A DNA stretch of 64,000 nt. Source: Azospirillaceae bacterium. GTDB taxonomy: Bacteria; Pseudomonadota; Alphaproteobacteria; Azospirillales; Azospirillaceae. The stretch is from the NCBI GenBank assembly GCA_028283825.1, contig JAPWJW010000001.1, positions 1,798,001 through 1,862,000 of the forward strand. The letters run 5' to 3'. Below the pieces are notes generated by a model, which saw only the letters and a program-made list of their open reading frames with translations, made no database searches and was not told the DNA's origin. Both the position numbers and the translations under genes were made by a program. Shown one piece after another: positions 36,555-62,530 of this stretch (position 1 is the first letter of the stretch; the number at the start of each line of letters is the position of its first letter).

Positions 36555-36706
36555 GGGCATTTGATCCTGGCAGATCAAATGCCCGCCCTCAGGCGCCGGG
36601 CGCTGGCATCCGGCGGCTTGGCTGATCCTCGCTTTCCAGTCCGCTGGCGCTCCCCGGAAAGCTCCGGCGGCCGCAGTCGCGGCCTATAACGACACGGTCC
36701 TGTCGC
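36555..36706 (-). repeat. Structured intergenic repeat, copy E1
   Basis: A reverse-orientation copy of a repeat family found five times in this window. Its stems are GGGCATTTGATC with GATCAAATGCCC (36555-36584), GCTTTCC with GGAAAGC, GGCCGC with GCGGCC (36669-36684), and CGACA with TGTCG (36690-36705). It lies between the autotransporter stop and the terminator at 36725. Confidence 0.8.
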
Positions 36707-36724
36707 CAGTGGAGCCCGGACAGC

Positions 36725-36758
36725 AAAAACCCCCGCGGCGGCGGCCACGGGGGTTTTT
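36725..36758. terminator. Bidirectional-type terminator
   Basis: AAAAACCCCCG pairs with CGGGGGTTTTT around a GC-rich loop, giving a U-run in either direction. It lies 35 bases after the stop of the leftward small exported-protein gene and downstream of the rightward autotransporter, so it can serve both. Confidence 0.85.
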
Positions 36759-36792
36759 AATTCACGGAAAGAAACGCTTGGAAGCGAAGCGC

Positions 36793-37143
36793 TTACGAAA
36801 CCGGACGCACCAGTTCCATCTTGTCACCCACGCGGCGCAGGTGCAGTTCCAGGGCCGGCTGGCCCACGCCCCGCGGCACGGACACCAGGGTTTCCTGGTC
36901 CGGCATCAGCGTGGAGACGAAACGGACGGTGCTGGCCGGATCCTGGGTACCAGCGGTCACCACCACCTGATAACCGGCGGCGGTGGGGTGGTAGTACAGG
37001 TTGACGTCGACGGCGTCGAAGGTGGTCTTCAGGGCGGTGTCGGCGGTCAGGTTTTCGGCGCGGGCGGCGCCGGCGAAGCCCAGGGCGCCAGCGACAGCAC
37101 TGGCGAGCAGAAGGGCGCGGGGGGTGACGATGGCGTTGGACAT
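36793..37143 (-). CDS. Small exported protein of unknown function
   Basis: 116 residues. It has a clear signal peptide (SNAIVTPRALLLASAVAGALG, cleavage after AARA). The mature part of about 85 residues starts ENLTADTALKTTFDAVDVNLYYH and is predicted mostly beta. I do not recognise the family. The start at 37143 is preceded by TTGAGG about nine bases upstream; the longer open frame to 37293 begins with unlikely Cys/Arg-rich sequence. It is transcribed leftward and probably alone, with a terminator at 36725-36758. A periplasmic or secreted role is inferred only from the signal peptide. Confidence 0.7.
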   Translation of the reverse strand: MSNAIVTPRALLLASAVAGALGFAGAARAENLTADTALKTTFDAVDVNLYYHPTAAGYQVVVTAGTQDPASTVRFVSTLMPDQETLVSVPRGVGQPALELHLRRVGDKMELVRPVS

Positions 37144-37501
37144 GATGGCTACCTCAAGGAAGGGGCCCCCAAGGGAATGGCCCCGGGGGCTAGGGCTTAT
37201 GCTGCAACTGCGAACGACTATATGGCAGCCGCGAAGACATGAGCAAGATGCACGCATCGCGCGTCGGCCATGCGACATCCATCCGCCAAACATTCCACCC
37301 CCTTTTTATTGGGGCATCCTTATGCCTGCCACTCGACCTCACCAGAATTCCCATTGATAAATAACGACATTTTAGGATGGTACCGGTACCTCACTTGCCG
37401 GGCCCGGTCTTCTTTTCAGAAATTCTGAATGATGTCTTCATTCGATTTGAACAACCGACCTGACAAACACCCTTGAATGCCGCGTCGCGATAAAGCCGAC
37501 C
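37144..37501. other. Intergenic region before the small exported-protein gene
   Basis: No gene seen. It contains the leader and promoter of the leftward small gene and the 3' flank of tonB. A 12-bp perfect palindrome GGTACCGGTACC lies at 37379-37390, followed by CCGGGCCCGG and a T-rich tract. AT-rich stretches at about 37300-37380 and 37410-37450 could hold promoters. No function can be assigned. Confidence 0.4.
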
Positions 37502-38263
37502 TCACTTCAGGAAGAACTGGACAGGCGCCACGATCTCGATCGGGTCGCCCGGCACCTCCGGCGGCGGCGGCGGCAAGGGCTGCGCCCGGGTGACCAGGGC
37601 CACGGCCTCCTGGTCCAGCGCCTCACGCCGGCTGCCGCGCTCCAGTTTCACCCACAGCACCCGGCCCTGGCGATCCATGGCGAAACGCACGTAGGCGATG
37701 CCCTGCTGGCGACGGGTCTGCGCCGCTACCGGGTATTGCTTGAACCGTTCCAGCTGCGCCCGCAGCGCGCCCTGCCAGGTGGGGGCCGCGTCACCCGAGG
37801 GTGCGGGCGGCGGGGCGGCGGGCGATGACGACGCGGCTTGGGGGGCGGCAATGTCCTGCGCGATGGCGGCCATGGCCGGGGCCAGCGGCACCTCCGCCGG
37901 GGTCGGCGATGGGGCCGCCGGCGGCGGGGCGGCAGGCTTGGGCGCCGGCCGGGGCTTGGGTGCCTCGGCCCTCTTCACCGGCGTCGGCTTGGGCAGGTCC
38001 ACCGGCTTGCGTTCCAGGGGCTTGGGCGGTTCAGGCCGCGCCGCCGGGGGCTTTTCCGGTGGCGCCGGCGGCAGTTCAATCATCAGGGCTACCGGCGGCG
38101 GCGGTGGGGATGGCGCTTGCGCCGTCGTCACCTGCCACAACACCGCCAGCGCCAGGGCGCCCCCATGCAGGGCGGCCATCACCAGGGCGGACGTGCCCCA
38201 CAGGCGGCCGCCACCGCCGTTCCGTCCGACCGGCCGCAGACGGTTTGGGCGCGCCGAACTCAT
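37502..38263 (-). CDS. tonB: TonB-like energy transducer
   Basis: 253 residues. One N-terminal transmembrane anchor (about 20-40: GTSALVMAALHGGALALAVLW) is followed by a long Pro/Lys/Ala-rich periplasmic linker (PPPPPVALMIELPPAPPEKP through PKPRPAPKPAAPPPA). The C-terminal TonB domain (about 175-253) contains YPVAAQTRRQQGIAYVRFAMDRQGRVLWVKLERGSRREALDQEAV. TonB passes energy from ExbB/ExbD to outer-membrane receptors. The start at 38263 has GGAGG seven bases upstream. It is divergent from the fecI-like gene across a region with a Fur-box candidate, so it probably serves the adjacent siderophore receptor. exbB and exbD are not in this window. Confidence 0.92.
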   Translation of the reverse strand: MSSARPNRLRPVGRNGGGGRLWGTSALVMAALHGGALALAVLWQVTTAQAPSPPPPPVALMIELPPAPPEKPPAARPEPPKPLERKPVDLPKPTPVKRAEAPKPRPAPKPAAPPPAAPSPTPAEVPLAPAMAAIAQDIAAPQAASSSPAAPPPAPSGDAAPTWQGALRAQLERFKQYPVAAQTRRQQGIAYVRFAMDRQGRVLWVKLERGSRREALDQEAVALVTRAQPLPPPPPEVPGDPIEIVAPVQFFLK

Positions 38264-38448
38264 GACCAGCCCTCCAGCCCGCCCCCGTCCCTCCGCCACG
38301 GGATCAGCATGCGAGCGATGCCGCAATGTCGTTGAGCATCAAGGGCTTGTTCATGACGACCACCTCAACCGGCAAACGTCCCGTCCCATCCAAACCCTGT
38401 CACTCAAGGTCCGGGCCCGGACGCAGCCTCATTCATAACAGGAAAGTT

Positions 38449-38467
38449 AATATTAGTTCTCATTATC
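38449..38467. promoter_or_regulatory. Candidate Fur box between tonB and the sigma-factor gene
   Basis: On the minus strand the site begins GATAATGAGAACTAAT. By eye it agrees with the classical 19-base Fur box at about 13 positions, including the first eight. It sits in the only AT-rich part of the divergent region between tonB and the FecI-like gene, where iron repression would be expected. Confidence 0.5.
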
Positions 38468-38609
38468 ATATAAGCGTACGCGGGGGCCACCGGACCGGCG
38501 CAGGGCAGGCATGCTGTCCGCCCCTGGCCTGCCCGCTTGCGTCACAGGGGGGCGGGCCGGTTAACAATTGAGAACCAATCGCACATCAACCGGCTGGACC
38601 GCGACCATC

Positions 38610-39119
38610 GTGACGGGCAAGGACCTAAAAGGGCTGTTCCTGGACCATCGACGGGAGTTGCACAGCTACATCAACAAGCGGGTGCGCAACGCCGACACGG
38701 CCGCCGATCTAACGCAGGAAACCTTCCTGCGCTTCGCGGAGCAGCGGCAAGGCAGGCCGGATGCGGCCATCACGCATGAGCGCTCCTACCTCTACCGCAC
38801 CGCCCACAACCTGGCGGTGGACCACATCCGCCAGCAGCAGCGTGAGCAGACCGCCCCGGTGGCGGAGGAGGATCTGGCCGCCATCCCGGATGAGACGCCG
38901 GGCCAGGACCGGGTGTCGGCCGGCATCCATGATCTGGACCGGGTCCGGGCCGCCCTGCTGGACCTGCCGGAGCGCACGCGCCAGGTTTTCGCGCTGACCC
39001 GCATCGAGGGGCTGACCTATCGCGAGGTGGCGCAACGCCTTGAAATCTCCGACAGTTCGGTCCAGAAACACCTGGCCAGGGCCATCAAGCAGGTGATGCA
39101 GCGCCTGCGATCCGATTGA
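38610..39119 (+). CDS. ECF sigma factor, FecI type
   Basis: 169 residues. Region 2 is DHRRELHSYINKRVRNADTAADLTQETFLRFAEQ, with the DLTQETFLR core-binding and -10 motif. Region 4 is LPERTRQVFALTRIEGLTYREVAQRLEISDSSVQKHLARAI, the -35 reading helix-turn-helix. FecI-type factors transcribe an outer-membrane iron receptor gene on a signal passed through FecR. The start is uncertain: I used GTG 38610, which puts MTGKDLKGLF first; TTG 38568 would add 14 residues, and neither has a good ribosome binding site. FecR and the receptor follow directly. Confidence 0.88.
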   Translation: MTGKDLKGLFLDHRRELHSYINKRVRNADTAADLTQETFLRFAEQRQGRPDAAITHERSYLYRTAHNLAVDHIRQQQREQTAPVAEEDLAAIPDETPGQDRVSAGIHDLDRVRAALLDLPERTRQVFALTRIEGLTYREVAQRLEISDSSVQKHLARAIKQVMQRLRSD

Positions 39120-39186
39120 GATTTCCGGCCCCCTTACCGAACCGGCACCCTTTCCCCGTCCTATTATCGACAGGGCGGGACAATTG

Positions 39187-40203
39187 ATGATTGCAGCGGG
39201 GCCCGCAGCCCCTGGGAACAAAGACTTGAGCAAGCCGGACAAACGCCAGGACGAGATCGACACGGCCGCAGCCGACTGGGCGGCGCGCCTGGCCGGCGGC
39301 CCGCTGTCGCTGGCGGAACGGCGGGCGCTGGACGGCTGGCGCGACCGCGACCCGGCGCACGGGGCCGCCCTGGATGAGGCGCAGGCCGCCTGGGCCCTGA
39401 TGGGCCAGTTGCGCGCCGCCCCCGGGGTGCTCGCCCGCGACATCGTGCCGGCCTGGCCCACGCCCAAGGCGCGGCGCCCGCTCTGGCGCCAGATGGCCGC
39501 CGCGGCCGCCTGCCTGCTGCTGCTGGTGGGCGGCGCCCGGCTGTGGCTGGGCGACCCGCTGCTGCTGCTGACCGCCGATGCGCGCACCAATCCCGGACAG
39601 CAGCGCAGCCTCACCCTGGCCGACGGCAGCGTGGTGGAATTGGGCCCGGCCAGCGCCATCGCCACCCGCTACAGCGACGGGGAACGGCGGGTGGCCCTGC
39701 TGGCCGGCGTCGCCTATTTCACCGTCGCGCCCATGGCGGGGGCGGAGCACCGGCCCTTCGTGGTGGAGGCCGCCGGCGGCACCGCCCGGGCGCTGGGCAC
39801 CCAGTTCATGGTGGACCGGCTGGCCGACGCGGTGGACGTCACGGTGACGGAACATACCGTCGCCGTGACGGAGCCCGCGGGCGACCAACGGGTGCTGTCC
39901 CCCGGCCAGGCGGTGCGCTATTCCGCCATGGGGCTGGAGCCGGTGCGGGAGGCCAGCGTGGAACTGGCCACCGCCTGGCGCCAGGGCCGCCTGGTGTTCG
40001 ACCACCAGCCGCTGGGTGAGGTGGTGGCGACACTCAACCGCTATCGCCACGGCCGCATCGTGGTGGCCGGGGCCGAGCTGGCGGCCCGCACCGTCAGCGG
40101 CGTGTTCGACACCACCGACCCGGACGCGACGCTCGCCACCGTGGCGCGCGAACTGCACGCCCGCACCGCCGCCCTGCCCCCCCTGGTGACGGTGCTTTAC
40201 TGA
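39187..40203 (+). CDS. FecR-type anti-sigma regulator
   Basis: 338 residues. The N-terminal cytoplasmic domain (DUF4880-like: DTAAADWAARLAGGPLSLAERRALDGWRDRDPAHGAAL) binds the sigma factor. One membrane segment follows (about 100-115: MAAAAACLLLLVGGARLWL), then a periplasmic FecR domain (SLTLADGSVVELGPASAIATRYSDGERRVALLAGVAYFTV). In this family the periplasmic part senses the loaded receptor's N-terminal domain and then frees or activates the sigma factor. It starts 67 bases after the sigma-factor gene; ATG 39187 is preceded by GGGCGGGA. A TTG at 39226 is an alternative start. Confidence 0.9.
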   Translation: MIAAGPAAPGNKDLSKPDKRQDEIDTAAADWAARLAGGPLSLAERRALDGWRDRDPAHGAALDEAQAAWALMGQLRAAPGVLARDIVPAWPTPKARRPLWRQMAAAAACLLLLVGGARLWLGDPLLLLTADARTNPGQQRSLTLADGSVVELGPASAIATRYSDGERRVALLAGVAYFTVAPMAGAEHRPFVVEAAGGTARALGTQFMVDRLADAVDVTVTEHTVAVTEPAGDQRVLSPGQAVRYSAMGLEPVREASVELATAWRQGRLVFDHQPLGEVVATLNRYRHGRIVVAGAELAARTVSGVFDTTDPDATLATVARELHARTAALPPLVTVLY

Positions 40204-40332
40204 GATTTCTGGCGTCTTCGCGGCGGTAATTTCCGGGGGGTTTCGGCAATTTTCCGCGCATTTCCGGCGACCTAAAAAAATCGCTGAAAAAGCGTTACCG
40301 ACTCCCCCCGCCTTTTCCGTCCCAGCTAGAGA

Positions 40333-40351
40333 GCGAATGCAACGTATTCGC
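40333..40351. promoter_or_regulatory. Inverted repeat before the siderophore receptor
   Basis: GCGAAT and ATTCGC form perfect 6-bp arms around GCAACGT. The site lies about 35 bases before the receptor start, where a metal-responsive repressor or the ECF promoter would be expected. The identity of any binding protein is unknown. Confidence 0.4.
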
Positions 40352-40385
40352 ATTTCTATCGGCAAGGCGTGAAAGGATGGACGTG

Positions 40386-42872: not shown

Positions 42873-42894
42873 GGCCCAAATGGTGAGAGCCTGA

Positions 42895-44082
42895 ATGTCC
42901 CCGCGTTCCAGCCTGTCGTCGACGGCGGTGCGGCGCTGGTCGGCGGTCCACACCTGGACCAGCCTGGCCTGCACCCTGTTCCTGCTGCTGATCTGCGTGA
43001 CCGGCCTGCCCCTGGTGTTCTGGTTCGAGATCGCCGACTGGCTGACGCCGCACACCTATGCCCGGCTGCCGGCGGACACCCCGCCGGCCAGCCTGGACCG
43101 CATCACCGACCTGGCCCGGGCACGTTACCCGGGCCAGGTCGTCATGTCCGTCTTCACCGATGATGACGAACCCCAGGTCTATGTCTGGATGGCGCCCGGC
43201 TGGGACCAGGTGAACACCAACCCGAGGGTCGCCCACCTGCTGCGCTTCGACGCCCGCACGGCGGAGGTGGTGGAGGACCAGAAGCCCTTGGCCACCAAGG
43301 AGCAGACCTTCCTGGGCCTGATGCTCAGCCTGCATCGTGATCTCTTCATGGGGTTGAAGGGCGAACTGTTCATGGGCGCCATGGCCCTGCTGTTCCTGGC
43401 CGCCATCATCTCCGGCATCGTGCTCTACGGCCCCTACACCCGCAAACTGGACTTCGGCACGGTGCGCGCGGGACGCTCAACCCGCGTCCGCTGGCTGGAC
43501 CTGCACAACCTGCTGGGCGTCACCACCCTGGCCTGGGCCCTGGTGGTGGGCGCCACCGGCGTGATCAACGAACTGACCACGCCGATGTTCGCCACCTGGC
43601 AGCGAACCGACGTGCGCGCCATGGTGGTGGCCTCCCGCACGCCATCCGGCGCCGGCCAGGCGACATCGGCCCTGACCCCAACCACGGGCCTCAGCTCCAT
43701 CGACGCCGCCTACGCCACCGCCGCCCGCACCCTGCCCGACATGCGGGTGATGAGCGCCATCTACCCCGGCTCCAGCCAGGGCACGCCCGACCACTATCTG
43801 GTATGGACCAAGGGCGCGACGCCCCTGACCGCCCGGCTGTTCAGCCCGATGCTGATCGACGCCCGCACCGGCGAACTGACGACCGTGCTGTCCATGCCCT
43901 GGTACCTGCGGGCCCTGGAAATCTCCCGCCCCCTGCATTTCGGCGACTACGGCGGCCTGCCGCTGAAGGCCCTGTGGGCCCTCTTGGACCTGGTGACCAT
44001 CGCCGTGCTGGGCAGCGGGCTTTACCTGTGGCTGGCCCGCCGCCGGGGCACGCCCGCGACGGCGGCCGCCTCACCCCGCTGA
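42895..44082 (+). CDS. PepSY-associated transmembrane protein
   Basis: 395 residues with about four membrane helices: WTSLACTLFLLLICVTGLPL near the N-terminus, ELFMGAMALLFLAAIISGIVL, VTTLAWALVVGATGVI, and ALLDLVTIAVLGSGLYLWL at the end. Conserved His residues sit in VHTWTS, LSLHRDLFMG, LDLHNLLG and RPLHFGDYGG. This is the PepSY_TM family often found next to siderophore receptors. Some members reduce ferric siderophores at the inner membrane, and the conserved His pattern would suit heme binding. It starts 22 bases after the receptor, so it is in the same operon. Confidence 0.88.
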   Translation: MSPRSSLSSTAVRRWSAVHTWTSLACTLFLLLICVTGLPLVFWFEIADWLTPHTYARLPADTPPASLDRITDLARARYPGQVVMSVFTDDDEPQVYVWMAPGWDQVNTNPRVAHLLRFDARTAEVVEDQKPLATKEQTFLGLMLSLHRDLFMGLKGELFMGAMALLFLAAIISGIVLYGPYTRKLDFGTVRAGRSTRVRWLDLHNLLGVTTLAWALVVGATGVINELTTPMFATWQRTDVRAMVVASRTPSGAGQATSALTPTTGLSSIDAAYATAARTLPDMRVMSAIYPGSSQGTPDHYLVWTKGATPLTARLFSPMLIDARTGELTTVLSMPWYLRALEISRPLHFGDYGGLPLKALWALLDLVTIAVLGSGLYLWLARRRGTPATAAASPR

Positions 44083-44110
44083 TCCAGTCCCCTTGAGCCG
44101 ACACAACCGC

Positions 44111-44347
44111 TCAGGTCCGCCCCACGGCGGCGGCGCGACGGGCGCGCAACAGGCTGGCCACGATCACCACCAGCGGTGCCGCCAGGGTGACCCAGGACAA
44201 CACCCACCACACCCCGTGTTCCCCCAGCAGCGCCGACAGCAAACCGAACACCGTCAACACCCCCAGCGCCACCGGCCAGGCCCAAACCTGCCGGAACGTG
44301 CCACCGTTATGGTGACGATGCCGCCTGCGATGATGCCGTCCGCTCAT
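44111..44347 (-). CDS. Small two-helix membrane protein
   Basis: 78 residues. A His/Arg-rich N-terminus (SGRHHRRRHRHHNGG) is followed by two hydrophobic helices (WAWPVALGVLTVFGLLSALLG and VWWVLSWVTLAAPLVVIVASLL). It faces the PepSY gene tail to tail, 28 bases away. ATG 44347 has AAGGGG eight bases upstream; ATG 44353 is too close to it. The His cluster suggests metal contact but no function is known to me. Confidence 0.72.
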   Translation of the reverse strand: MSGRHHRRRHRHHNGGTFRQVWAWPVALGVLTVFGLLSALLGEHGVWWVLSWVTLAAPLVVIVASLLRARRAAAVGRT

Positions 44348-44611
44348 ACCCATATCCCCTTCAGAACCGCCCCCGGAAAACCGGCCTGATCATAAGACGA
44401 TTTTGCGAGGCATTTTCAATAAGGGCTTTTTGGGGGGGGGAAATTAGCCGCTCATCCAAATGAGTGCTCCTGCCCCCATTTTCCGAGTTTCCGGCAAATT
44501 TCATCTGTCGACACCCCTGCGGCTGTCGGTGGGGCGGATTTACATTTGTCACAACTACCAGGATGCATATGATGCCGCAAGAGCACCTGACAGCAGCACT
44601 CGCTGACGTGA

Positions 44612-45346
44612 GAGACCGTTTGGAAAAGGTTGCGGGTAGGTGTGCCATGATTCAAGCTTGGCATGTGGAGCTAGGCGAGCCGTGGGCGAATGGCCCAAAT
44701 GGAAAATAAGACGAAGCGGTATGCGTCGAACCTGAATGATAAGGAATGGTTGCTGATAGAACCGCTGCTGCCCCAGCCGAAGTCGAAAGGCTGTTCGCGC
44801 CAGATCGAATTGCGTGAATTATTGAATGCGCTGAGATATTTGGCGCGGTCGGATCATGGTTGCCGGATGCTGCCGGTTCATTTCCTCCCTTGGCAGACGG
44901 TTTATTGGTGGTTCCAGCAGTTTGGGCGTCGATTGTTATTCCAAATCACCCACGACATTGCGGTTATGATGGACCGGGAGCGTGCGGGTCGGGAAGGCAG
45001 TCCGAGTGCCGGGATGTTGGACAGTCAGTCGGTGAAGGCACCTTCAGCCAAGGAACGTGGCTTTGATGGCGGCAAGAAGGTGACTGGCCGCAAGCGCCAC
45101 ATCGCGGTTGATACCGAAGGGCGCCTGCTGATGGTCAACCTGACCCCGGCCGACATCTCCGATTCCGTTGGCGCCCAACAGATCCTGGATGGCCTGCGCA
45201 AGCGTTGGCTCTGGATGACGCGATGGCGGCGCCTCGTCCGCGATTACGAGAGCCGCATCGATGTGTCCAAGAGCATGATACAATTCGCCGTGGCCAGCCT
45301 GCTACTTAGGCGGGTTTTCCACTGAACCGAGTTTCCAAACGGACTC
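44612..45346 (+). mobile_element. IS5-family insertion sequence, internally deleted (left copy)
   Basis: The left inverted repeat begins GAGACCGTTTGGAAA at 44612; the right end, TTTCCAAACGGACTC, finishes at 45346. The two match at all but one of 15 positions. The flanking bases are TGA on the left and TAA on the right, so there is no exact target duplication, although both fit the TNA target of some IS5 subgroups. The transposase inside lacks the segment between the second Asp and the catalytic Glu, so this copy could only move in trans. Confidence 0.85.
44690..45325 (+). pseudogene. IS5-family transposase with in-frame internal deletion
   Basis: 211 residues against about 265-280 usual for the group. 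The N-terminal part is good (LNDKEWLLIEPLLPQPKS, LPWQTVYWWFQQFGRRLL). The first catalytic Asp region is present (SAGMLDSQSVK), as is the GRKRHIAVDTEGRLLMVNLTPADI strand. The text then jumps from ILDGLRKRWLWM straight to TRWRRLVRDYESRIDVSK. The missing part normally carries FADGAY (second Asp) and VVERTFGW (Glu). The protein therefore cannot be catalytically active. The same junction occurs in the right copy. Confidence 0.85.
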
Positions 45347-45383
45347 TAAGCATATTCATAACTTGATAAGAAAGTAAGCCAGC

Positions 45384-48295: not shown

Positions 48296-49192
48296 TTATG
48301 TCAGCGGGTGCTTCCTGAACCACTCACCCAGAAACGTCAGCAGCGCCCGCACCTTCCTGGGCAGGTTGCTGCCGGGGGCGTAGGCGGCGAACAGGGGGCG
48401 GTCTTCCAGGCGGAAGTCGGTCATCACTTCCTGGATCTGGCCTTCCTCCAGGAACTGGGCGGCGACGCGGCGGGGGACGATGGCGACGCCCAGATCGTTG
48501 ACGGCGCCCACGCACAGCACGGCGTAGCTGTTGCTGGAAAAGCGGGGGCTGACCTTGACGGGGACCAGTTCGTTGTCGGCCATGAAGCGCCAGATGGGTT
48601 CCGACGTCTGCATCAGGCACTGGTGGTCCTTCAGGTCGCGCGGGTGGCGGGGGATGCCGGCCCCCTTGAGGTAGGCGGGCGAGGCCACGGTGACGTAGCT
48701 GATGTCCGCGATCTTCTTCACCTTCACGATGGAATCGCGGATGGTCTTGGTCTGGAACGCGATGTCGAAGCCGCGTTCCAGGAAGTCGTGCGTCTTGGTG
48801 GACACGCCCCCCAAGGTCAGTTGCACGTTCACCTTGGGATAACGCTTGGCGAAGTGCAGCAGGGCGGTGCTGACCTCCAGGTAGCCCACCCATTTGGGTG
48901 CGATGATGGCGATGTTGCCCTGGACGTCGACGTTGAGGTTCTTCACCCCCTCCTCCCCGCTGCGCACCTCATGCAGCACGCGCTGGCAGGTCTCATAATA
49001 TTGCTGGCCGGCCTCCGTCGTCGTCACGGCGCGGGTGGTGCGGTTCAGCAGGCGCACGCCCAGGCGCCCCTCCAGATCCGCGATGTGGCGGGAGACCAGG
49101 GCGCGGGATATGCCGATGTCGCTGCTGGCGGCCGTGAAGCTGCCGTATTGGACGACCTTGACGAAGCTTGCCATCGTGAGCAATCGGTCCAT
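48296..49192 (-). CDS. LysR-family transcriptional regulator
   Basis: 298 residues. The N-terminal winged helix is MASFVKVVQYGSFTAASSDIGISRALVSRHIADLEGRLGVRLLNRTTRAVTTTEAG. The substrate-binding domain follows (GYLEVSTALLHFAKRYPKVNVQLTLGG through GVAIVPRRVAAQFL). Effector unknown. It is read in the same direction as purU, which lies upstream of it beyond a dispersed repeat, so it may control the C1 cluster, but it could also be independent. ATG 49192 has GGGAGGG just upstream; ATG 49204 lacks spacing from its purine tract. Its 3' end abuts the right IS remnant. Confidence 0.9.
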   Translation of the reverse strand: MDRLLTMASFVKVVQYGSFTAASSDIGISRALVSRHIADLEGRLGVRLLNRTTRAVTTTEAGQQYYETCQRVLHEVRSGEEGVKNLNVDVQGNIAIIAPKWVGYLEVSTALLHFAKRYPKVNVQLTLGGVSTKTHDFLERGFDIAFQTKTIRDSIVKVKKIADISYVTVASPAYLKGAGIPRHPRDLKDHQCLMQTSEPIWRFMADNELVPVKVSPRFSSNSYAVLCVGAVNDLGVAIVPRRVAAQFLEEGQIQEVMTDFRLEDRPLFAAYAPGSNLPRKVRALLTFLGEWFRKHPLT

Positions 49193-49224
49193 GCGCCCTC
49201 CCATCCTGTTTTATTTTTAAATTC

Positions 49225-49341
49225 TTCAAACGCCGGCAGGCCCATCCGGGCCCTTGGCTTATCCTCGCGTTTCAGTCCGCTTCGCTTCCCGAAACGCTCC
49301 GGCGCCCGCGGTCGCGGGCTACGGCCCGGTGTTCCGGGCCG
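49225..49341 (-). repeat. Structured intergenic repeat, copy E2
   Basis: Reverse orientation. Stems are GGCCCGG with CCGGGCC (49323-49340), GCCCGC with GCGGGC, and GCGTTTC with GAAACGC. Only half of the terminal TTTGA hairpin remains (TTCAAACGCC). It lies between the LysR gene and purU. Confidence 0.72.
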
Positions 49342-52969: not shown

Positions 52970-53142
52970 CGGGCCCGGGGGATGGACAGTCGTGCGGCGA
53001 AGCAGCACAGGTCGTGCCGCACCGCACACTGTCCGCCCGCCCAGGCCTTGAAGCCCCAGCCGGCCGGCCCATTTCCTGTTAGCGTCGCGCGCCGAACCGA
53101 TGGGCGGGCGACGCTAAACATCGGCTGGATGGAGGGAGGGAC

Positions 53143-54354: not shown

Positions 54355-54393
54355 GGCGCAGACAGCGGATACCGCGGAGACCACGTTTATGCC

Positions 54394-54510
54394 AGCGGCA
54401 TGAGGCAACTCATGCCGCTGTAGGCCCCGACCGGGGCCGCCGGAGCGAGCACCGAAGGGCGGAGCGAGGATAGCCAAGCTGACGGATGTCAGCGCCCGGC
54501 GATTGAGGGA
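54394..54510 (+). repeat. Structured intergenic repeat, copy E5
   Basis: Forward orientation. AGCGGCATGAG pairs with CTCATGCCGCT over a GCAA loop (54394-54419); GGCCCC with GGGGCC around GACC; GCTGAC with GTCAGC around GGAT. The terminal TTTGA hairpin is missing. It lies between two convergent genes. Confidence 0.8.
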
Positions 54511-54512
54511 AC

Positions 54513-57389
54513 TTAGAAATTGGCCCGCACGCCGAAGATCACCTGCATGCCCGGATAGTAAACGCTGTAGGGCGCGTTTTCCTGGCCGAAGACGGTGCGG
54601 ATGGGCTCGTTGGTGACGTTCAGCGCGTCGACCGTGACGCGGAACATGTCGTTGGCGAAGGGCAGCTGGTAGCCCAGCGACAGGTCCAGCTGGCCGCGCG
54701 CGTCGCTGATGAGGGCGGAGTTGAGGTTGTTCTGCGGGGCGTTGGCGGCGACGGAGCTGTCGGTCCAGACATAGTTCACGCTGACCGAGACGCCGTGGCC
54801 TTCGTAATAGCCCTGCAAATTGTAGCTCCACGGTGCCACGCCGGTGGCGAACATGCCGCTGGCGGAGCTTTGCTCGATATGCGTGGCGTTGGCGGAGAAG
54901 CCCAGGCCGTCGAACACGAAGTCCAGCGGCTGCACCCAGGTCATCTCCACACCCTGCAACAGCAGCTTGCTGAGGTTGACCGGCTGGGTCAGCGTGACGG
55001 TGGCGACATCCGGGCCGCCACGCAGCATCAGGGCCTGTTGCTGGCTGACCGCCAGGTCGCTGAAGGCGATGCCCAGCGCGGTGAAGGGCACAGTGCTCTG
55101 CGTCGTCACGGTGAAGCCATCGATGTCCTTGCGGAACAGGTCGACGCCGACATACCCCAGGCCGCCCGTGTACCACTCCCCACCGATGTCGATGTTGTTG
55201 GAGGTGTAGGGCTTCAGGTTGGGGTTGCCCGCACTGGCGACCTGGGCGGAGATGTCGGAGAAGGTGGTGCCGGGCAGCAGCTGGCTGGCGTCGGCGCGGG
55301 TCATGCTGCGGGAGGCGGAGGCGCGCAGCTTGATGTCGTCGGCGACGCTGTAAACCAGGTTCATGGACGGCAGCACGTCGCTGTAGCCGGTGTCGAAGCT
55401 CTGCTCGATATAGCCGCTGGCCACCTGCACCGGGCTGGTCACCAGCTGGTCGGTGTGGAAATAGCGCAGGCCGACGTTGAAGGCCACGTCGTGGCCCAGC
55501 AGCGTGTCCTTGGCGTTGCCCTCGACGTAGCCGCCGAAGGTCTTCTCGCGGATATTGCCGACCGAACCGCCGGTGACGGCGCTGCGGGTCTCAGGGGCGG
55601 TGTCGCGGTAATAGTCATAGTTGGTCGCCTTTTCCAGGGCGGCCAGGTTGGTCATGATGTACTTGGTGTAGCCGACATTGCCGCTGGCCAGGTGGCCGAA
55701 GTCGCTAATGTTCAAGGCACTAAGGTACTGCCCCACTTGCGAGTTGGGCACCAGGCCGGTGGTGCCGTCGCAGGTGGCGCCGCACACCGCCGTCTGGAAG
55801 GCGACGCTGTTGTCATAGGCGCGGATGATGCGGCTGGCCATGTCGTAGGCGCCGCCCACCTTCACGTTGACGTCGTCGCTGCCGTAGCGGGTGTCGATGT
55901 GGGCGCCGCGGGTGGTGGTCTCGCGGTACACGTTCTGCACGTTGACGCGGTACCACTGCCAGCCCAGGTCCGGGTCGCTCAGGTCGCGGTTGGTGGTGAT
56001 GATGGGCTGGCCGCTGTTGCCGCCGCTTTGGTAGAACACGGTCAGGCCGGATTGCTGCGGCGTCTGGAAGTCGAACTGCGGCTGTTCGCGGAAGAAGGTG
56101 CTGTGGCCGTAGTTGACCTGGGCATCGACCTGGAAATCCTTGGACGGCTTCCACGTCAGGGTGGGGTTGATGTTGTAGAACTCGGTATGCTGCTTGAAGA
56201 TGTCGTTTTCCAGGAAGAAGCTGGAATTGGCGAAGGTGCCTTGCGTCACGATGTTGTTGCTGTCCACCGTCAGGTCGATGGGGACCATGCCGCCGGTGGA
56301 GGTGGGCGAGGTGCCGGGGCCGGAATTGCGCACGTACCAGTTCATGTTCAGGCGCTGGTAGTCGCGGTCGGACTGGGCCCACAGGCCGTCCACGGCGAAG
56401 TGCCATTCATCGCTGGGCCGGTATTCGAACGACACCACGCTGGACACCCGCGACCGGTCGCCGAAGGTATAGCTGTTGCGGGCCAGGCGCGGGATCTGCG
56501 CGCTGCCCAGCTGCGCCAGGCTGAGGCCGGAGGTGGCGGCCAGGTCCACCGGCGTGCCGGGCGTCAGGCCGTAACCAGTGTTGTTGGGCACCGTGCTGGC
56601 ATAGACGAAGCCGTTGCCCGCCCCCTTGTCGGCGGCGACGCCCAGATTGCCGTCGGTCCAGCCGATGGTCTCGAACCCGTCGATGCGGGTGGTGGTCTTC
56701 ACGCCGGACACGCCGACCAGCACACCGAAGTCACCCCAGGTGTGGCTGGCGACCAGGGCGCCGCGCGGGCTGACGTCGCCGTTGGAATTGGTGTATTCGC
56801 CCTGGCCGATCAGGGTGATGTGCGTGCCTTCCTTGTCGAAGGGGCGGGCGCTGTGCAGGTTCACCGTGCCGGCGATGCCGCCCTCCAGCTGATCGGCCGT
56901 GGGGCTTTTGGACACGTCCAGGCGGGTGAACAGTTCTGACGGGAACAGGTCCAGATCGACCTCGCGGTTGGCGTTGCCGCCGTTGGTGCCGCCGTCCGAC
57001 GCCACCGCGATCTGGGTGTTGTTCAGCAGCACCTTGGAGAAGCTGGGGCCCAGGCCGCGGATGGAGACCTGCACGCCCTCGCCGTCGATGTCGCGGTTCA
57101 GGTTGACGCCGGGGATGCGGTTCAGGGTTTCGGCCAGGTTGGTGGCCGGCAGCTTGCCGATGTCCTCGGCGAAGATGCTGTCGCCGAAGCCCACGGCGTC
57201 GCGCTTGGCCTGGGTCGCGTCCAGCAGGCTGCGGCGGATGCCGGTCACCACGATCTCATCCATGGCGGTGGGATCGGTCGCAGCGGCCGGATCGGCCGTC
57301 ACCTGCGCGCGCGCCGCCGGCACGCCCGCCAGCGCGCCCACCAGCGCGGTCGTCATGAGCAGAGTCTTGCAGTGTCTTGAACGGACCAT
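54513..57389 (-). CDS. TonB-dependent receptor, Caulobacter-type (glycan uptake)
   Basis: 958 residues. The signal peptide (CKTLLMTTALVGALAGVPAARA) is followed by the TonB box DEIVVTGIRRS, the plug (IGKLPATNLAETLNRIPGVNLNRD through DQLEGGIAGTVNL) and a beta-barrel ending GVRANF. This oligosaccharide-type receptor has no STN domain and is usually part of glycan-use loci in alphaproteobacteria. GGGAGG lies just upstream of ATG 57389. It is 63 bases downstream of the glycosidase gene, so they are cotranscribed. Its probable role is import of uronate-containing oligosaccharides to feed the genes upstream. Confidence 0.92.
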   Translation of the reverse strand: MVRSRHCKTLLMTTALVGALAGVPAARAQVTADPAAATDPTAMDEIVVTGIRRSLLDATQAKRDAVGFGDSIFAEDIGKLPATNLAETLNRIPGVNLNRDIDGEGVQVSIRGLGPSFSKVLLNNTQIAVASDGGTNGGNANREVDLDLFPSELFTRLDVSKSPTADQLEGGIAGTVNLHSARPFDKEGTHITLIGQGEYTNSNGDVSPRGALVASHTWGDFGVLVGVSGVKTTTRIDGFETIGWTDGNLGVAADKGAGNGFVYASTVPNNTGYGLTPGTPVDLAATSGLSLAQLGSAQIPRLARNSYTFGDRSRVSSVVSFEYRPSDEWHFAVDGLWAQSDRDYQRLNMNWYVRNSGPGTSPTSTGGMVPIDLTVDSNNIVTQGTFANSSFFLENDIFKQHTEFYNINPTLTWKPSKDFQVDAQVNYGHSTFFREQPQFDFQTPQQSGLTVFYQSGGNSGQPIITTNRDLSDPDLGWQWYRVNVQNVYRETTTRGAHIDTRYGSDDVNVKVGGAYDMASRIIRAYDNSVAFQTAVCGATCDGTTGLVPNSQVGQYLSALNISDFGHLASGNVGYTKYIMTNLAALEKATNYDYYRDTAPETRSAVTGGSVGNIREKTFGGYVEGNAKDTLLGHDVAFNVGLRYFHTDQLVTSPVQVASGYIEQSFDTGYSDVLPSMNLVYSVADDIKLRASASRSMTRADASQLLPGTTFSDISAQVASAGNPNLKPYTSNNIDIGGEWYTGGLGYVGVDLFRKDIDGFTVTTQSTVPFTALGIAFSDLAVSQQQALMLRGGPDVATVTLTQPVNLSKLLLQGVEMTWVQPLDFVFDGLGFSANATHIEQSSASGMFATGVAPWSYNLQGYYEGHGVSVSVNYVWTDSSVAANAPQNNLNSALISDARGQLDLSLGYQLPFANDMFRVTVDALNVTNEPIRTVFGQENAPYSVYYPGMQVIFGVRANF

Positions 57390-57452
57390 TTCTCTTCCCT
57401 CCCTGGCCTCTCGTTTGATGGAGGCCGCGTGTTTGTCGATGTCGAACTGGGG

Positions 57453-59087
57453 TCAGCGGTAGCGGTAGAACGTGACGCGCTGGATCTGGAATTTCTCCGA
57501 GCCCAGGCGGATGTGCCGGCCCTGGTGGGTCTGGTCGCCGTTGAGCACGCGGCCCCCCACCCATTGGCCCTGGGCGTTGAAGTCGCCCTCCTCCGCCCGG
57601 TCGATGCCGGCCAAGGCAGGCCCCTCGCCGGCACCGGCAAAGGTGACGACCAGGCCGCGCCCGGCGATCAAATATTCCTCCGGCCCGGTCTGGATGATCA
57701 TGCCGCCGTGGGCGGAGACATCCTGGTCGGCCTTGGGCAGCCACGGGTCGATGAAGGCCACGGTGAAGCGGTAGTCGCCGATGGTGCGGCTGACCGGCGC
57801 CTCCAGCACCGTGCCGTCCTCCAGCACGCGGGGCTTGAAGCCGGCCATGCGGTCCAGCCCCTGGGCCTTCAGGATGGCGGGGGTCAGCTGGCGCAACACG
57901 CCGTAGGCCTCCGTCAGCGCCGCCTGGTACTTGCCGTCCGCATTCTCGATGGAGAAGGGGGAGTAGCCGAAGGCGTCCAGGTTGCCGATGGCGTAGAAGC
58001 CGTTGGCCGGCACCTCCGCCGCCGTGGTGACGTTGTTGGCTTCCGGGATGAACAGCGGGTTGTCGGCTCGGCGGTAGCGGCCGGCCAGGTCGCTGAAGTT
58101 GGGGAAATAGATGTCGGGGCTGATCAGATCCAGGCTGGGCGCCCCCGCCTTCCACACGTCGATCAGGTGGGGTAGCGGCCCGCCCGCCGGATACTCGCCC
58201 GGCGCCTTGCCCGTGCGGTTCAGCGCCACGTTGGCGTACATGGGCAGCGGATAGGCCGCCTTGCCGGCACGGGTGACGGCTTCGGTGTACTGGGCATAGA
58301 ACCAGGCGGTGAACACCTCTTGGCCCCCGTCGGCGTCGCCGAACACCTGCGCCCAGGTGCCGTTCGTGCGGGCGCCGTGCGCCTGCCACAGGGCCTTCAG
58401 TTCCGGCTGCGCGCCGTCACCGGCCAAGCAGCGCAGCAGGGCGTCGGGCACCGGCCGGCCCCAGGCGGCGGTGGCGTCATCGCCCCAGTCGCGCGCCGTG
58501 GGCAGCATACCGATCTCATTCTCCACCTGCACCATCAGCACGGTGCCGCGCCCGTCCACCGCCTTCAGGTGGGCCAGCAAGGCGGCGTAGGCCTTGGCAT
58601 CGGCGTCCCGGACGTTGGGGGAGAAGGCCGACAGGATCTCCACGCTGGTGCCGTTGGCCGCCCTGGCACGGGGAAAGCGCGCCTGGTCGCGCTTCACCCA
58701 GCCGGGCACGTAGGTGGACATGCTGTTCTTCCAGGTGCCGAACCACAGCAGCACCAGATGCATGTCCTGGGCGCGGGCGTCGGCCAGCAAACCATCGATG
58801 GAGGAGAAATCGAACACCCCCTCCTTCGGCTCGATCAGTTCCCAGGACACCGGCGACAGCACCGTGTTCAGGTTCATGGCCTTCAGCTTGGGCCAGTACT
58901 TGGCCATGTAGGCACGGCTGGATGGGCTGGAGTTGCCCAGCTCACCGCCCAGGACCAGCAGGGGGCGGCCGTCCACCACCAGGCGCGCCGCCGTGCCCTG
59001 GTGTTCCAGGGTGGGCATGGCGGCATGCGCCGGCGTTGCCGCCACCAGCGACAGGGCGATCACCGCCCCCCACGCCCGAGTGCCCAT
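57453..59087 (-). CDS. Exported GH35-like glycoside hydrolase (DUF5597 type)
   Basis: 544 residues from ATG 59087. The signal peptide is MGTRAWGAVIALSLVAATPA with cleavage after AHA. The TIM-barrel carries VVDGRPLLVLGGELGNSS and NLNTVLSPVSWELIEPKEGVFDF, typical of GH35/GH42 enzymes. The acid/base is Glu191 in VQVENEIGM and the nucleophile is probably Glu349 in FIPEANN. The C-terminal part matches the beta-sandwich of the DUF5597 group. It likely removes terminal beta-galactose or another sugar in the periplasm. The start is doubtful: ATG 59087 has no good ribosome binding site, whereas in-frame ATG 59285 has AGGGAG nine bases upstream and would read through a dispersed repeat, adding 66 residues before the signal peptide. 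Confidence 0.85.
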   Translation of the reverse strand: MGTRAWGAVIALSLVAATPAHAAMPTLEHQGTAARLVVDGRPLLVLGGELGNSSPSSRAYMAKYWPKLKAMNLNTVLSPVSWELIEPKEGVFDFSSIDGLLADARAQDMHLVLLWFGTWKNSMSTYVPGWVKRDQARFPRARAANGTSVEILSAFSPNVRDADAKAYAALLAHLKAVDGRGTVLMVQVENEIGMLPTARDWGDDATAAWGRPVPDALLRCLAGDGAQPELKALWQAHGARTNGTWAQVFGDADGGQEVFTAWFYAQYTEAVTRAGKAAYPLPMYANVALNRTGKAPGEYPAGGPLPHLIDVWKAGAPSLDLISPDIYFPNFSDLAGRYRRADNPLFIPEANNVTTAAEVPANGFYAIGNLDAFGYSPFSIENADGKYQAALTEAYGVLRQLTPAILKAQGLDRMAGFKPRVLEDGTVLEAPVSRTIGDYRFTVAFIDPWLPKADQDVSAHGGMIIQTGPEEYLIAGRGLVVTFAGAGEGPALAGIDRAEEGDFNAQGQWVGGRVLNGDQTHQGRHIRLGSEKFQIQRVTFYRYR

Positions 59088-59090
59088 ACC

Positions 59091-59252
59091 AGCGGCACGA
59101 GAGCCTGACTCGTGCCGCTGTAGGACGCGACCGCGTCCGCCGGAAGTTTCCGGGGAGCGGAGCGGACTGGAAACTGAGGACGAGCCAAGCCGACGGATGT
59201 CGGCGCCCGGCGACTGAGGGGCGGCGTTTGAGCAGCCACGATCAAACGCCGC
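59091..59252 (+). repeat. Structured intergenic repeat, copy E3, at the glycosidase start
   Basis: Forward orientation. AGCGGCACGAG pairs with CTCGTGCCGCT (59091-59119), GGACGC with GCGTCC, AGTTTCC with GGAAACT, GCCGAC with GTCGGC, and GCGGCGTTTGA with TCAAACGCCGC (59221-59252). It abuts the ATG at 59087 of the leftward glycosidase gene and separates it from a ribosome binding site and ATG at 59285. Confidence 0.85.
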
Positions 59253-59326
59253 GCGTATTAGCGTATGCGTGTTCAGGCACCCCATGTCCCGTTTCTCCCT
59301 AGGTCGGCACGTTAACCGTGTTCTCG

Positions 59327-59346
59327 AAATGGTAGCGTTACCATTT
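59327..59346. promoter_or_regulatory. LacI-type operator before the glycosidase-receptor operon
   Basis: AAATGGTAGCGTTACCATTT is palindromic at 18 of 20 positions with a central CG, the classic layout of LacI-family operators. An AT-rich region with TATATT and TTGACA lies just upstream in the leftward direction (59347-59420), so the site overlaps or follows the promoter of the glycosidase-receptor operon. The nearby LacI gene is the likely source of the regulator. Confidence 0.75.
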
Positions 59347-59504
59347 CCGATTGATGGCGAGATTGTCAATATATAATTGCAATCTATCATCAAATAGATC
59401 TTGAGTTTTATTTTTAAAATCACGCGCAATACGTCACGATCGGCAGTCGCATTGCCGACACTGATCAGGTCAGTACTTTAATCGCCACGCGTTTGACCGT
59501 CTTA

Positions 59505-60833
59505 TCAGCCGCTTCCTTCTTCCAGGACTGCCGGCTTCAGCCGCGGGCTCAGCACCTGCAAGGCCAGCAGCGCCAGGGGATAGGCCAGGGCCGCCACCAG
59601 GAAGACGGGGCCGTAGCTGCCGGTGGTTTGCAGGATCCAGCCGGTGAACTTCGCCATCAGCATCCCGCCCACCGCCCCCGCCGCCCCACCGATGCCCACC
59701 AGGGTGGCGACGGCACTTCTGGGGAACAGGTCGGACGGCAGGGTCATGAGGTTGGCGGAGAAACCCTGGTGCCCGGCGGTCGCCAGCCCGATGACGGCCA
59801 CCGCCAGCGGCAGGCTGCCCACCCAGGGCGCCGACAGCACCGGCATGACGCACAGGGCACCGGCCAGCATCGCCGCCTTGCGGGCGACATTCGCCCCCCG
59901 CCCCCGCCGCATCAGGCGGGAGGACAGCCAGCCGCCGGCCACACTGCCCACGTCCGACATCAGGTAGATGACGATCAGCGGCGGCCCGAAACCCTGGAGG
60001 TCCAGCCCGAAGCGACGGCCCAGGAAATCCGGCAGCCAGAACAGGAAGACCCACCAGATGGGATCGGTCAGGAACTTGGCCAGCACATAGGCCCAGGTCT
60101 GGCGCCAGCCCAGGATGCGGACCCAGCCGGGCCGGCGTGCGTCCGCGCCGCGCGCCGAGATGGGGTCCGGCGTGTCGGAGCGGATATGGGCCAGTTCGGC
60201 GGCCGTCAGGCGGCGGCTTTCCTCCGGCCGGCGATAGAACACCAGCCAGGCGGCCAGCCAGGCGAAACTGGCCAGGCCCGTCAGCAGGAAGGCCGCGCGC
60301 CAGCTGAACATCGTGACGATCAGCGGCACCACCAGCGGCGTCACCACCGCCCCGACATTGGCGCCGGCGTTGAAGATGCCGATGGCCAGCGCGCGTTCGC
60401 GCTGGGGGAACCATTCGGTCACGCTTTTCAGGCCGGCGGGGAAATTGCCGGCCTCCCCTGCGCCCAGGGCCACGCGCGCCAGGATGAACTGCGTCAGGCC
60501 GGTCGCCAGGCCGTGGGCCATGTGGGCCAGGTTCCACACCAGGAAAGTCAGGGCATACCCCCAGCGGGCGCCCACCCGGTCGATGACGCGGCCGAACACC
60601 AGGTAGGCGCCGGCGTAGGCCGCCTGGAAACAGAAGACGACATGGGCGTAATCGACATCCGACCAGGCGAATTCCCGGGACAGCAGGGGCTTCAGCAGCC
60701 CCAGCATCTGGCGGTCGACATAATTGATGACGGTGGCGGCGAACAGCAGGGCGACGACGATCCACCGCCGCCGGCCGATGCCGGCCGGCGATGACACCGC
60801 TGAAACGGCCGTCGTTTCCGACTGCCACGCCAT
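59505..60833 (-). CDS. MFS transporter, hexuronate (ExuT-like) family
   Basis: 442 residues, 12 predicted membrane helices. The ACS-type signature is near the N-terminus (VALLFAATVINYVDRQMLGLLKPLL), with the loop motif GRVIDRVGARWG and GAGEAGNFPAGLKSVTEWFPQRERALAIGIFNAGANVG, close to ExuT/GudP carriers of hexuronates and related acids. It acts in the inner membrane as a proton symporter. It lies 74 bases downstream of the ManD-type gene on the same strand, so it shares the promoter at 62287-62315. Hexuronate fits the neighbouring dehydratase better than other anions. Confidence 0.9.
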   Translation of the reverse strand: MAWQSETTAVSAVSSPAGIGRRRWIVVALLFAATVINYVDRQMLGLLKPLLSREFAWSDVDYAHVVFCFQAAYAGAYLVFGRVIDRVGARWGYALTFLVWNLAHMAHGLATGLTQFILARVALGAGEAGNFPAGLKSVTEWFPQRERALAIGIFNAGANVGAVVTPLVVPLIVTMFSWRAAFLLTGLASFAWLAAWLVFYRRPEESRRLTAAELAHIRSDTPDPISARGADARRPGWVRILGWRQTWAYVLAKFLTDPIWWVFLFWLPDFLGRRFGLDLQGFGPPLIVIYLMSDVGSVAGGWLSSRLMRRGRGANVARKAAMLAGALCVMPVLSAPWVGSLPLAVAVIGLATAGHQGFSANLMTLPSDLFPRSAVATLVGIGGAAGAVGGMLMAKFTGWILQTTGSYGPVFLVAALAYPLALLALQVLSPRLKPAVLEEGSG

Positions 60834-60907
60834 GAACGCCTCCCTCGTCCTATGTTTCCACCGGCGGGGTTTTCCCCGCGCGGTGTTTTTTTTGTTACTT
60901 CAGTGCT

Positions 60908-62113
60908 TTACCAGTTCCATAAGGTCCCGTCGGTCAGGCGCGCCACCGGCAGATAGGCCGGCTGGTAGGGATACTTGGCGGCCTCGACCTCATCGATATC
61001 GACGCCATGGCCGGGCGCCTCGCCCGGGTGCATGTAGCCGTCCGTGAAGGTGTAGGCGTGGGGGAAGACGCTGTCGGTCACGGCCTCGTGCACCATGCGT
61101 TCCTGCACGCCGAAGTTCGGAACCCACAGGTCGAAGTGCAGGGCCGCCCCCATGCACACCGGCGACAGGTCGGTGGCGCCATGGCTGCCGGTGCGCACCT
61201 GGTACAGGGCCGCCAGGTCGGCGATGCGGCGCAGGTGGGTGATGCCGCCGGCATGCACCACGGTGGTGCGGACGTAGTCGATCAGCTGGTTCTGGATCAG
61301 GTCTTTGCAGTCCCAGATGCTGTTGAACACCTCCCCCACCGCCAGGGGCGTGGTGGTGTGCTGGCGGATCAGGCGGAACGCCTCCTGGTTTTCAGCCGGC
61401 GTGGGATCTTCCATCCAGAACAGGCGGTAGGGCTCCAGGCTCTTGCCCAGCCGCGCCGCCTCGATGGGGGTCAGGCGGTGGTGCACGTCGTGCAACAGGT
61501 GCACGTCCCAGCCGAAGCGGTCGCGGGCGGCGGCGAACAGGGTGGGCGCGAAATCCAGATAGGCCTCCGTCGACCACACGGTCTCCGCCGGCAGGCCCTT
61601 GGTGGCGGGTTCGTAATTGATGCCCTTGGCGACACCGTAGGTGCCCTGCTGCCCGGGCACGCCCGCCTGGACGCGGATGGCGCGGTAGCCCTGGTCCAAA
61701 TAATGGGCCACCTGGTCCAGTGCCTCCGGCACGTCGCGGCCGTTGGCGTGGCCATAGACCATGACACCCTCGCGGCTCTTGCCGCCCAGCAGCTGGTACA
61801 GCGGCATGCCGGCCAGCTTGGCCTTGATGTCCCACAGGGCGGTGTCCACGGCGGCGATGGCCGACATGGTCACCGGGCCGCGGCGCCAGTAGGCGCCCTT
61901 GTACAGATACTGCCAAATATCCTCGATCTGGCGGGGGTCGCGGCCGATCAGGCAGGGGATGACATGGTCGGTGAGGTAGGAGGCGACGGCCAGTTCGCGC
62001 CCGTTCAGGGTGGCGTCACCGATGCCGTACACACCCTCGTCGGTGCGGATCTTCAGCGTGACGAAATTCCGCGCCGGGCACGTGACGATGACGTAGGCGT
62101 CCGTGATCTTCAT
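60908..62113 (-). CDS. D-mannonate dehydratase-type enolase-superfamily protein (ManD/RspA)
   Basis: 401 residues, the usual ManD length. The N-terminal capping domain ([27 protein letters not shown]) precedes a TIM-barrel. Predicted Mg ligands are Asp209 ([12 protein letters not shown]), Glu235 ([12 protein letters not shown]) and Glu261 (GEVFNS). Acid/base His residues are His211 next to the first ligand and His311 in [10 protein letters not shown]. The family dehydrates D-mannonate to 2-keto-3-deoxygluconate; some close relatives prefer D-gluconate or have little activity, so the assignment is by family and context. ATG 62113 has GGAGTTGGAAAG upstream. First gene of the operon with the MFS carrier. 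Confidence 0.88.
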
Positions 62114-62286
62114 GGGCTTTCCAACTCCGCGCAGGATGGCGGGCCGCGCCGATGCAGCAGGCCCCGTTTCATTTGGTCCGCGTTTGCGATCAGTCCCCGG
62201 CCGGGGCGCCGGCGAATGGGCGGCGGGCCGTCGGTGACACTGCGATTTCCTCCCACGGGCGGCACCGCCGCCCTGTTCTGCCATTC

Positions 62287-62315
62287 ATGTATGCTACCAT
62301 ACCAGTTGAGGTCAA
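62287..62315 (-). promoter_or_regulatory. Promoter with embedded regulator box, upstream of the ManD gene
   Basis: Read leftward: -35 TTGACC (62315-62310), a 17-base spacer and -10 ATACAT (62292-62287). The spacer contains GGTATGGTAGCAT. The stretch from CTGGTATGGTAG onward matches a promoter near 63,761-63,789 at about 20 of 25 positions with the same geometry. The start codon is about 175 bases downstream, past a dispersed repeat outside the core promoter. Confidence 0.6.
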
Positions 62316-62371
62316 GAGGGTGTTTGCGGGGCCGTCGCACATTCATGCAATTTGGCCTTCGGGCTCATGTC

Positions 62372-62530
62372 AGCGGCACAAAATTCTGATTCGTGCCGCT
62401 GTAGGCCGCGACTGCGGCTGCCGGGGCTTTACGGGGAGCGTAGCGGACTGGAAAGCGAGGAAGCCCAAGCCGACGGATATCGGCGCCCGGCGCATGAGGG
62501 ACGGCATTTGAACGATCACGTTCAAATGCC
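62372..62530 (+). repeat. Structured intergenic repeat, copy E4
   Basis: Forward orientation. AGCGGCAC pairs with GTGCCGCT (62372-62400), GCCGC with GCGGC around GACT, GCTTTAC with GGAAAGC (one mismatch), and GGCATTTGAACG with CGTTCAAATGCC (62503-62530, perfect 12-bp arms). It lies between the LacI gene stop and the ManD promoter, where the last hairpin could also end LacI transcription. Confidence 0.85.

Follow-up and report, generated by a model that had tools for sequence, protein, structure and literature searches.

The intergenic repeat that recurs five times in a 64,000-nucleotide stretch of the genome of an Azospirillaceae bacterium (contig JAPWJW010000001.1, positions 1,798,001 to 1,862,000; this whole stretch is the window below) is a miniature inverted-repeat transposable element (MITE), as judged by its ends, its target duplication, its size, its copy number and the empty sites found in congeners. 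We consider it likely that this MITE family, which has a conserved folded core, is moved in trans by an IS630-type transposase. Clean elements run from TACC to GGTA (5'-TACC[A/G]..., ...GGTA-3'), and with 144-169 bp between these ends (roughly 145-190 bp overall) and 75 copies in 864 kb, they combine the small size and the high copy number of MITEs.

Spread, target site and mobility of the family

The 75 copies were found with a covariance model made from 60 core copies of the same genome (window copies A, D and E included, D as its L001 copy), at E ≤0.1 (weakest 0.0018), in a sample of 864,000 bases consisting of the window and 40 stretches chosen by hand. A first-pass annotation had placed five copies in the window, between genes and in both orientations, and had proposed such a model search for more; the five are real by sequence and by the model (E-values 2.9e-14 to 1.6e-23) and both strands are used in the larger set (44 minus, 31 plus), but five was a large undercount. 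Because the sampled stretches were hand-picked, copy numbers per genome are estimates: model density scales to ~620 copies per 7.16 Mb genome, and one 36-base pattern, with 167 exact matches across the whole genome, 26 in the sample and none for the reversed-pattern control, scales to ~480.

To judge by the forms of the element, the window genome is probably that of a Nitrospirillum. The family is abundant in all seven genomes of the genus, its own included (106-150 matches per 150 scored candidates each), and the 36-base pattern occurs in 12 of 289 sampled alphaproteobacterial genomes, from eight families, again with 0 matches for the reversed control. A motif pattern scan returned at least 120 stretches, 80 of them listed, and among the matches listed are records of Nitrospirillum, Niveispirillum, Azospirillum, Roseomonas, Magnetospirillum, Telmatospirillum, Terasakiella and two Sphingomonadales; some record titles give Proteobacteria only, and the genera named are alphaproteobacterial. 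The Bordetella repeats suspected at first were dropped as candidates, as the scan returned Alphaproteobacteria. Phages gave no match to the element, and plasmids a single Niveispirillum record with a 40-base match. The comparison with Rfam that the annotation had suggested gave no family: the element is absent from release 15, nothing in the window except a tRNA lies above a gathering score, and the sub-threshold matches of copy D lie far under the cut-off. Among the matches listed in a search of the literature by title and start of abstract, no paper describes the repeat, although a description may exist beyond these.

The terminal inverted repeats are short and often degenerate in the home genome, with partial further symmetry in other genera. 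In the loci of the motif scan, TACC and GGTA stand at the predicted spacing from the core in 28 elements; with no condition placed on their flanks, TNA adjoins the left end in 22, the right end in 20 and both ends in 19. Within these 19 the middle base of the two flanks is identical in 14, compared with a shuffle mean of 5.7 and 0 of 10,000 shuffles as high. Equal 3-bp flanks are present in 14 of the 28, so that this recount without conditions makes the target-duplication figure somewhat weaker; the flanks of window copy C (TTA/TTA) strengthen it. Copy E also has equal flanks (TCA/TCA), and copy D does not.

Empty sites in congeners show that the element is mobile. Of the own copies followed in one syntenic block, e10605 left aside, e2321 is missing in six of six congeners, e4466 in all three that can be aligned (its right flank was not found in three others), and e3371 in four, with a copy in the opposite orientation in two; the far flank of e785 cannot be aligned in any congener. 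The TonB-receptor gene adjoining copy C has no copy beside it in six of six congeners, where a different gene lies on the other side, and the covariance model found no match in 5.8-kb congener loci around that gene. Between congeners G001 and G006, which are 93.7% identical in the block compared, two sites are shared, two hold remnants with internal deletions and two are filled in one genome and empty in the other. Most of this mapping is lost to rearrangement, with both flanks in place for 4 of 37 and 5 of 38 copies, one of the latter five being a doubtful tandem-array match.

A candidate mover and landing beside stop codons

What might move so small an element? A scan of 2.96 Mb of loci, set to find longer units that have TAC[C/G] at their ends, lie between equal TNA flanks and match at 14 or more of 20 end bases, yielded exactly one candidate, in the window genome: a 1,168-bp IS630-family insertion sequence (IS) with HTH_33 and DDE_3 domains. 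Its three close copies in this genome, at least 99.6% alike, all have the form TAA|TACCAACGAGCG...GCTCTTTGGTA|TAA; one of the three came from the search that imposed the flanks and two independently, by protein search. A full-length copy in congener G006 is flanked by TTA/TTA, all five further single IS ends adjoin TNA, and one of two transposase relatives outside the genus also ends ...GGTA|TAA, its left end not having been found. Of the 15 bases at an element end, 8-13 are matched in the IS left ends and 6-10 in the right ends, TACC being common by construction, and agreement is best for elements of the uncultured bin-2163. Because the element ends resemble those of a TNA-flanked IS630-family group, a transposase of the IS630 type is the most likely mover in trans, a link suggested by ends and target.

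The window also holds an IS5-like insertion sequence (44611-45347), with a 211-aa frame at 44690-45325 (DUF4096 and DDE_Tnp_1) and 16-bp inverted ends AGAGACCGTTTGGAAA; its DDE_Tnp_1 match spans just profile positions 3-83 of 200. As mover of the element it was rejected, since these ends differ from those of the element.

The annotation's description of the repeat as lying between genes extends to the whole set. For the 74 copies that could be placed, no midpoint falls inside a predicted gene, although some copies reach up to 37 bp into the end of a predicted gene. They occupy 38 convergent, 34 codirectional and 2 divergent gaps, compared with 118, 403 and 116 among all gaps. A stop codon faces 72 of the copies, and 43 of these stand no more than 8 bp from it, where uniform placement within their gaps would give 21.2 +/- 2.7. 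Both results depend on a home-made gene caller rather than on annotated genes, and the second also on approximate element ends. Among 19 clean elements the target TNA itself serves as a stop codon in 10 when the flanks are joined and in 9 when the real flanks are taken singly, compared with 10.8% of 25,911 TNA sites in the same loci; a stop was counted if the open frame before it had 100 codons or more. Copy E illustrates this, as a reverse-strand Peripla_BP_3 frame closes with ...GCC TGA and the element begins there.

Most copies sit directly behind genes or between convergent genes, and the target may explain why. TNA includes TAA and TGA, both stop codons, as well as their reverses, so that a duplication of the target would restore the stop codon; such insertions would spare the protein and survive, and copies would become packed behind genes and between convergent ones. 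Selection against other landing sites would have to add to this preference. A TNA target would then explain how a transposon lands harmlessly exactly on stop codons, and many mRNAs may owe their 3' ends to the element.

The folded core and the alternatives

The core of about 100 bp consists of hairpin II, hairpin III with an internal loop, a linker GAGGA..GCCAA, hairpin IV with a GGAT loop, and a tail NNTGAGGG; in complete elements it stands between hairpins I and V. Across the 60 core copies, which were chosen by short unpaired anchors of set sequence with no condition on the stems (invariance of the anchors in this set is therefore partly by choice), 97.4% of the cells of 24 pairs are paired, compared with 78.9% after shuffling and 30-47% with slid partners. 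Both sides change together in 17 of the 24 pairs (256 cells), and covariation is 0.504, against 0.164 +/- 0.009 for shuffles (0 of 500 as high) and 0.03-0.06 for slid partners. Since the copies are related, each helix was tested on a tree made from the columns outside it, with a parsimony count of changes from one of the four Watson-Crick pair types to another: 44 in hairpin II, 55 in III, 11 in inner III, 4 in outer IV and 63 in IV, a total of 177 from trees that, at ~100 columns, are weak, and a count that exchange between copies would inflate. Switches between paired and unpaired states total 35, 14 of them in the outer stem of hairpin IV, which an additional C apparently throws out of alignment. 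The GCC/GGC stem closing hairpin IV shows four C-G to G-C swaps; the outer closing stem CGCCGG/CCGGCG (19-23/92-96) was rejected as a covarying stem, as paired change is absent from it. In 125 copies from outside the genus, in which hairpin IV has 28 different 5' arms, this hairpin is 96.6% Watson-Crick, compared with 44.7% when the arms are shuffled. Selection on the folded form, as the annotation had proposed from paired changes that are indeed present in the window copies, is well supported by covariation that survives the tree correction. The stems are incomplete in some window copies: hairpin I is degenerate in A, the last hairpin is not complete in B and C, and the third is short in C. 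One pair in the third stem of copy E is A-G.

The unpaired parts change far less. GAGGA is present in 73 of the 75 model matches, CGGA[T/C]G and TGAGG in 70 each and GGG[G/A]A in 67, counts favoured by a model that itself rewards conserved unpaired motifs; in other genera an AGCC-AAG-type linker occurs in 114 of 130 copies, and this linker was not imposed by the scan, as CGGATG, CGCCCGGCG and TGAGGG were. The long hairpin III with GGGGA/GGACT is typical of Nitrospirillum-like copies and mostly shorter in other genera. Loops and linkers that stay nearly constant while stems change in a compensatory manner indicate that a folded single strand is probably under selection. Some copies have a short hairpin III (GCGAGCACCGAAGGGCGGAGC in copy C) instead of the long form, in the window at 54421-54509 and at L062, L048, L060, L063 and L064.

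Tandem arrays of cores alone, with ~119 bp per unit and a linker like GCGTAGCGACTAGG, were seen at locus L284 (G006:C1, about 200,900-201,490) and, with a different number of units, at L266 (G001:C4, about 249,660-250,110). Cores 99-109 bp apart also stand in tandem at L084, L073, L115 and L093 (Terasakiella, Falsiroseomonas, Novispirillum and an uncultured Rhodospirillales bin).

Could the repeat be a conserved functional RNA, such as a terminator, a 3'-untranslated-region element or a small RNA family, repeated by chance rather than a selfish element? The strong covariation, the nearly constant loops and linkers and the placement behind stop codons are what such an RNA would lead one to expect, and G-U exceeds A-C by 32 to 12 in the core set, in cells that are not independent, 10 coming from one column. 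In hairpin IV alone, with both groups combined, G-U and A-C stand at 6 each, and because the excess vanishes there these counts leave RNA versus DNA undecided. Most orthologous sites examined are also unshared between congeners (two of six informative G001/G006 sites are shared), and beside codirectional neighbours the orientation is the same in 19 cases and opposite in 15, hence without bias. A structured RNA family had been one of the annotation's two suggestions, and its covariation stands, but with neither an orientation bias nor a G-U excess in hairpin IV we regard a functional RNA as an unlikely alternative.

The compensatory look of the stems could also arise by mutation, if template switching in quasi-palindromes copied one arm to the other at replication. 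Many C-G to G-C flips have no G-U intermediate (columns 7-14, 75-87 and 77-85), and stems are nearly perfect even in diverged copies, as arm copying would produce; it does not by itself account for the nearly fixed unpaired parts (73, 70 and 70 of 75; 114 of 130). The fold is either selected or held by arm copying, and the near-fixed loops and linkers favour selection, so that we hold arm copying to be a doubtful explanation. With hundreds of dispersed copies in one genome and extensive compensatory change among them, the two can be tested against each other within one species.

The annotation's other suggestion, a REP/MITE-like repeat, stands for its MITE half (inverted ends, a 3-bp TNA duplication, empty sites and an IS with ends of the same type). 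A repetitive extragenic palindrome (REP) of the GTAG hairpin type, spread by a REP-associated tyrosine transposase (RAYT), is very improbable, since, although GTAG follows hairpin I in many copies (hairpin I then GTAGG) and the high copy number and intergenic placement fit, the inverted ends with TNA flanks speak against it, GTAG is absent by eye after hairpin I in most elements of other genera, and the RAYT gene that the annotation had proposed to look for did not appear, the own genome having no Y1_Tnp (PF01797) match where 5 of 14 control genomes had one (congeners were not searched).

Several observations weigh against a MITE moved by an IS630-type transposase. Half of the 28 clean-ended elements have unequal 3-bp flanks, and the two filled/empty site pairs lack a clean duplication because the adjacent stop codon differs (TTA where empty, TCA where filled). 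End similarity is short, at 6-10 of 15 for IS right ends and, in the genus itself, 8-9 for left ends. A close relative of the transposase is present in four of seven genus genomes, its own included, and in two of the eight other pattern-bearing genomes searched (8 of 11); because of this patchiness the mover may be another IS, or an extinct one. Nineteen of the 75 copies align only past hairpin I, and, together with the tandem core-only arrays, this leaves room for the core to multiply in another way. The test of placement depends, as noted, on a home-made gene caller and approximate element ends, and that of stop codons on open frames. We nevertheless retain transposition in trans by an IS630-type enzyme as the probable account. 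The fold would then probably aid the spread or the tolerance of the element, either as a folded 3'-end RNA or as extruded DNA hairpins. A bolder possibility, which we put forward tentatively and consider rather improbable, is that the core, rather than being passive cargo, acts as a folded nucleic acid in its own right, conserved across alphaproteobacterial families, and defines a new type of mobile element: spread or host tolerance would require the fold, IS630-type insertion at TNA would carry it to stop codons, and several hundred genes would be given a common structured 3' end.

The window copies are listed in Table 1; the left ends of copies A and B could not be read. Copy A follows two long open frames, one of 8,529 codons (5999-31588, +) and one of 1,884 codons (30894-36548, +). 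Beside copy E a LacI-type regulator is seemingly split (62538-63859, -), with LacI and Peripla_BP_1 in frame 62813-63859 and its C-terminal Peripla_BP_3 part in the frame that ends at the element.

Table 1. Copies of the element in the window, with their covariance-model matches and surroundings
Copy	Position	Strand	Model match	Structure	Flanks and neighbours
A	36551..36706	-	36586-36686	degenerate hairpin I, core 36686-36586, hairpin V	right end 2 bp from stop TGA 36546-36548 of + strand open reading frame 30894-36548
B	49216..49341	-	49223-49321	core 49321-49223; upstream hairpin unlike other copies; no complete hairpin V	upstream of LysR-family gene 48296-49204 (-)
C	54390..54512	+	54421-54509	hairpin I, core with short hairpin III, no hairpin V	TTA (54387-54389) / TTA (54513-54515); right TTA is stop codon of TonB-receptor gene 54513-57389 (-)
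D	59087..59257	+	59121-59220	complete, TACC to GCGTA, with all of hairpins I-V	CCA / TTA, no matching target duplication
E	62368..62537	+	62402-62500	complete element	TCA (62365-62367) / TCA (62538-62540); right TCA is reverse of stop TGA of frame 62538-62972 (-), with Peripla_BP_3 domain as in LacI-type regulators

Comparison with known repeats

The element resembles known bacterial mini-transposons but has an unusually well kept folded core. The comparisons below follow published descriptions. Among the repeats compared, the closest parallel is with RUP of Streptococcus pneumoniae, for which IS630-Spn1 has been proposed as mover (PMC2229807, PMC3049150). RUP is likewise small (~107 bp), high in copy number and intergenic, shares its terminal inverted repeats with an IS630-family IS and is over-represented between convergent genes. 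Unlike the element described here, RUP is AT-rich and its terminal inverted repeats are hybridised in one duplex; the repeated flank is TNA here, where a TA dinucleotide target is reported for RUP, and the core here is GC-rich, is made of several separate covarying hairpins and occurs in eight of the alphaproteobacterial families sampled.

Other repeats share single features. The Correia elements or NEMIS of Neisseria are also small elements with terminal inverted repeats, a target duplication and a folded transcript, but with 24-bp inverted repeats and TA termini, and in another class; the CIR repeats of Caulobacter and Brucella are alphaproteobacterial and intergenic and have two hairpin arms with a linker, but contain a GANTC motif and have no terminal inverted repeat. 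Both are set apart by description. GTAG- and CGTC-tagged REPs are high-copy palindromes, and CGTC REPs predominate in Alphaproteobacteria, but their units are of 20-40 bp with a tag at one end, and GTAG REPs are tied to RAYT genes, none of which was found here (PMC3733652). Bor-1 and BRE of Bordetella come near in size (~90-117 bp) and are mostly intergenic, with a common fold predicted for Bor-1; belonging to Betaproteobacteria, they too are set apart by description (PMC2267715, PMC3110155).

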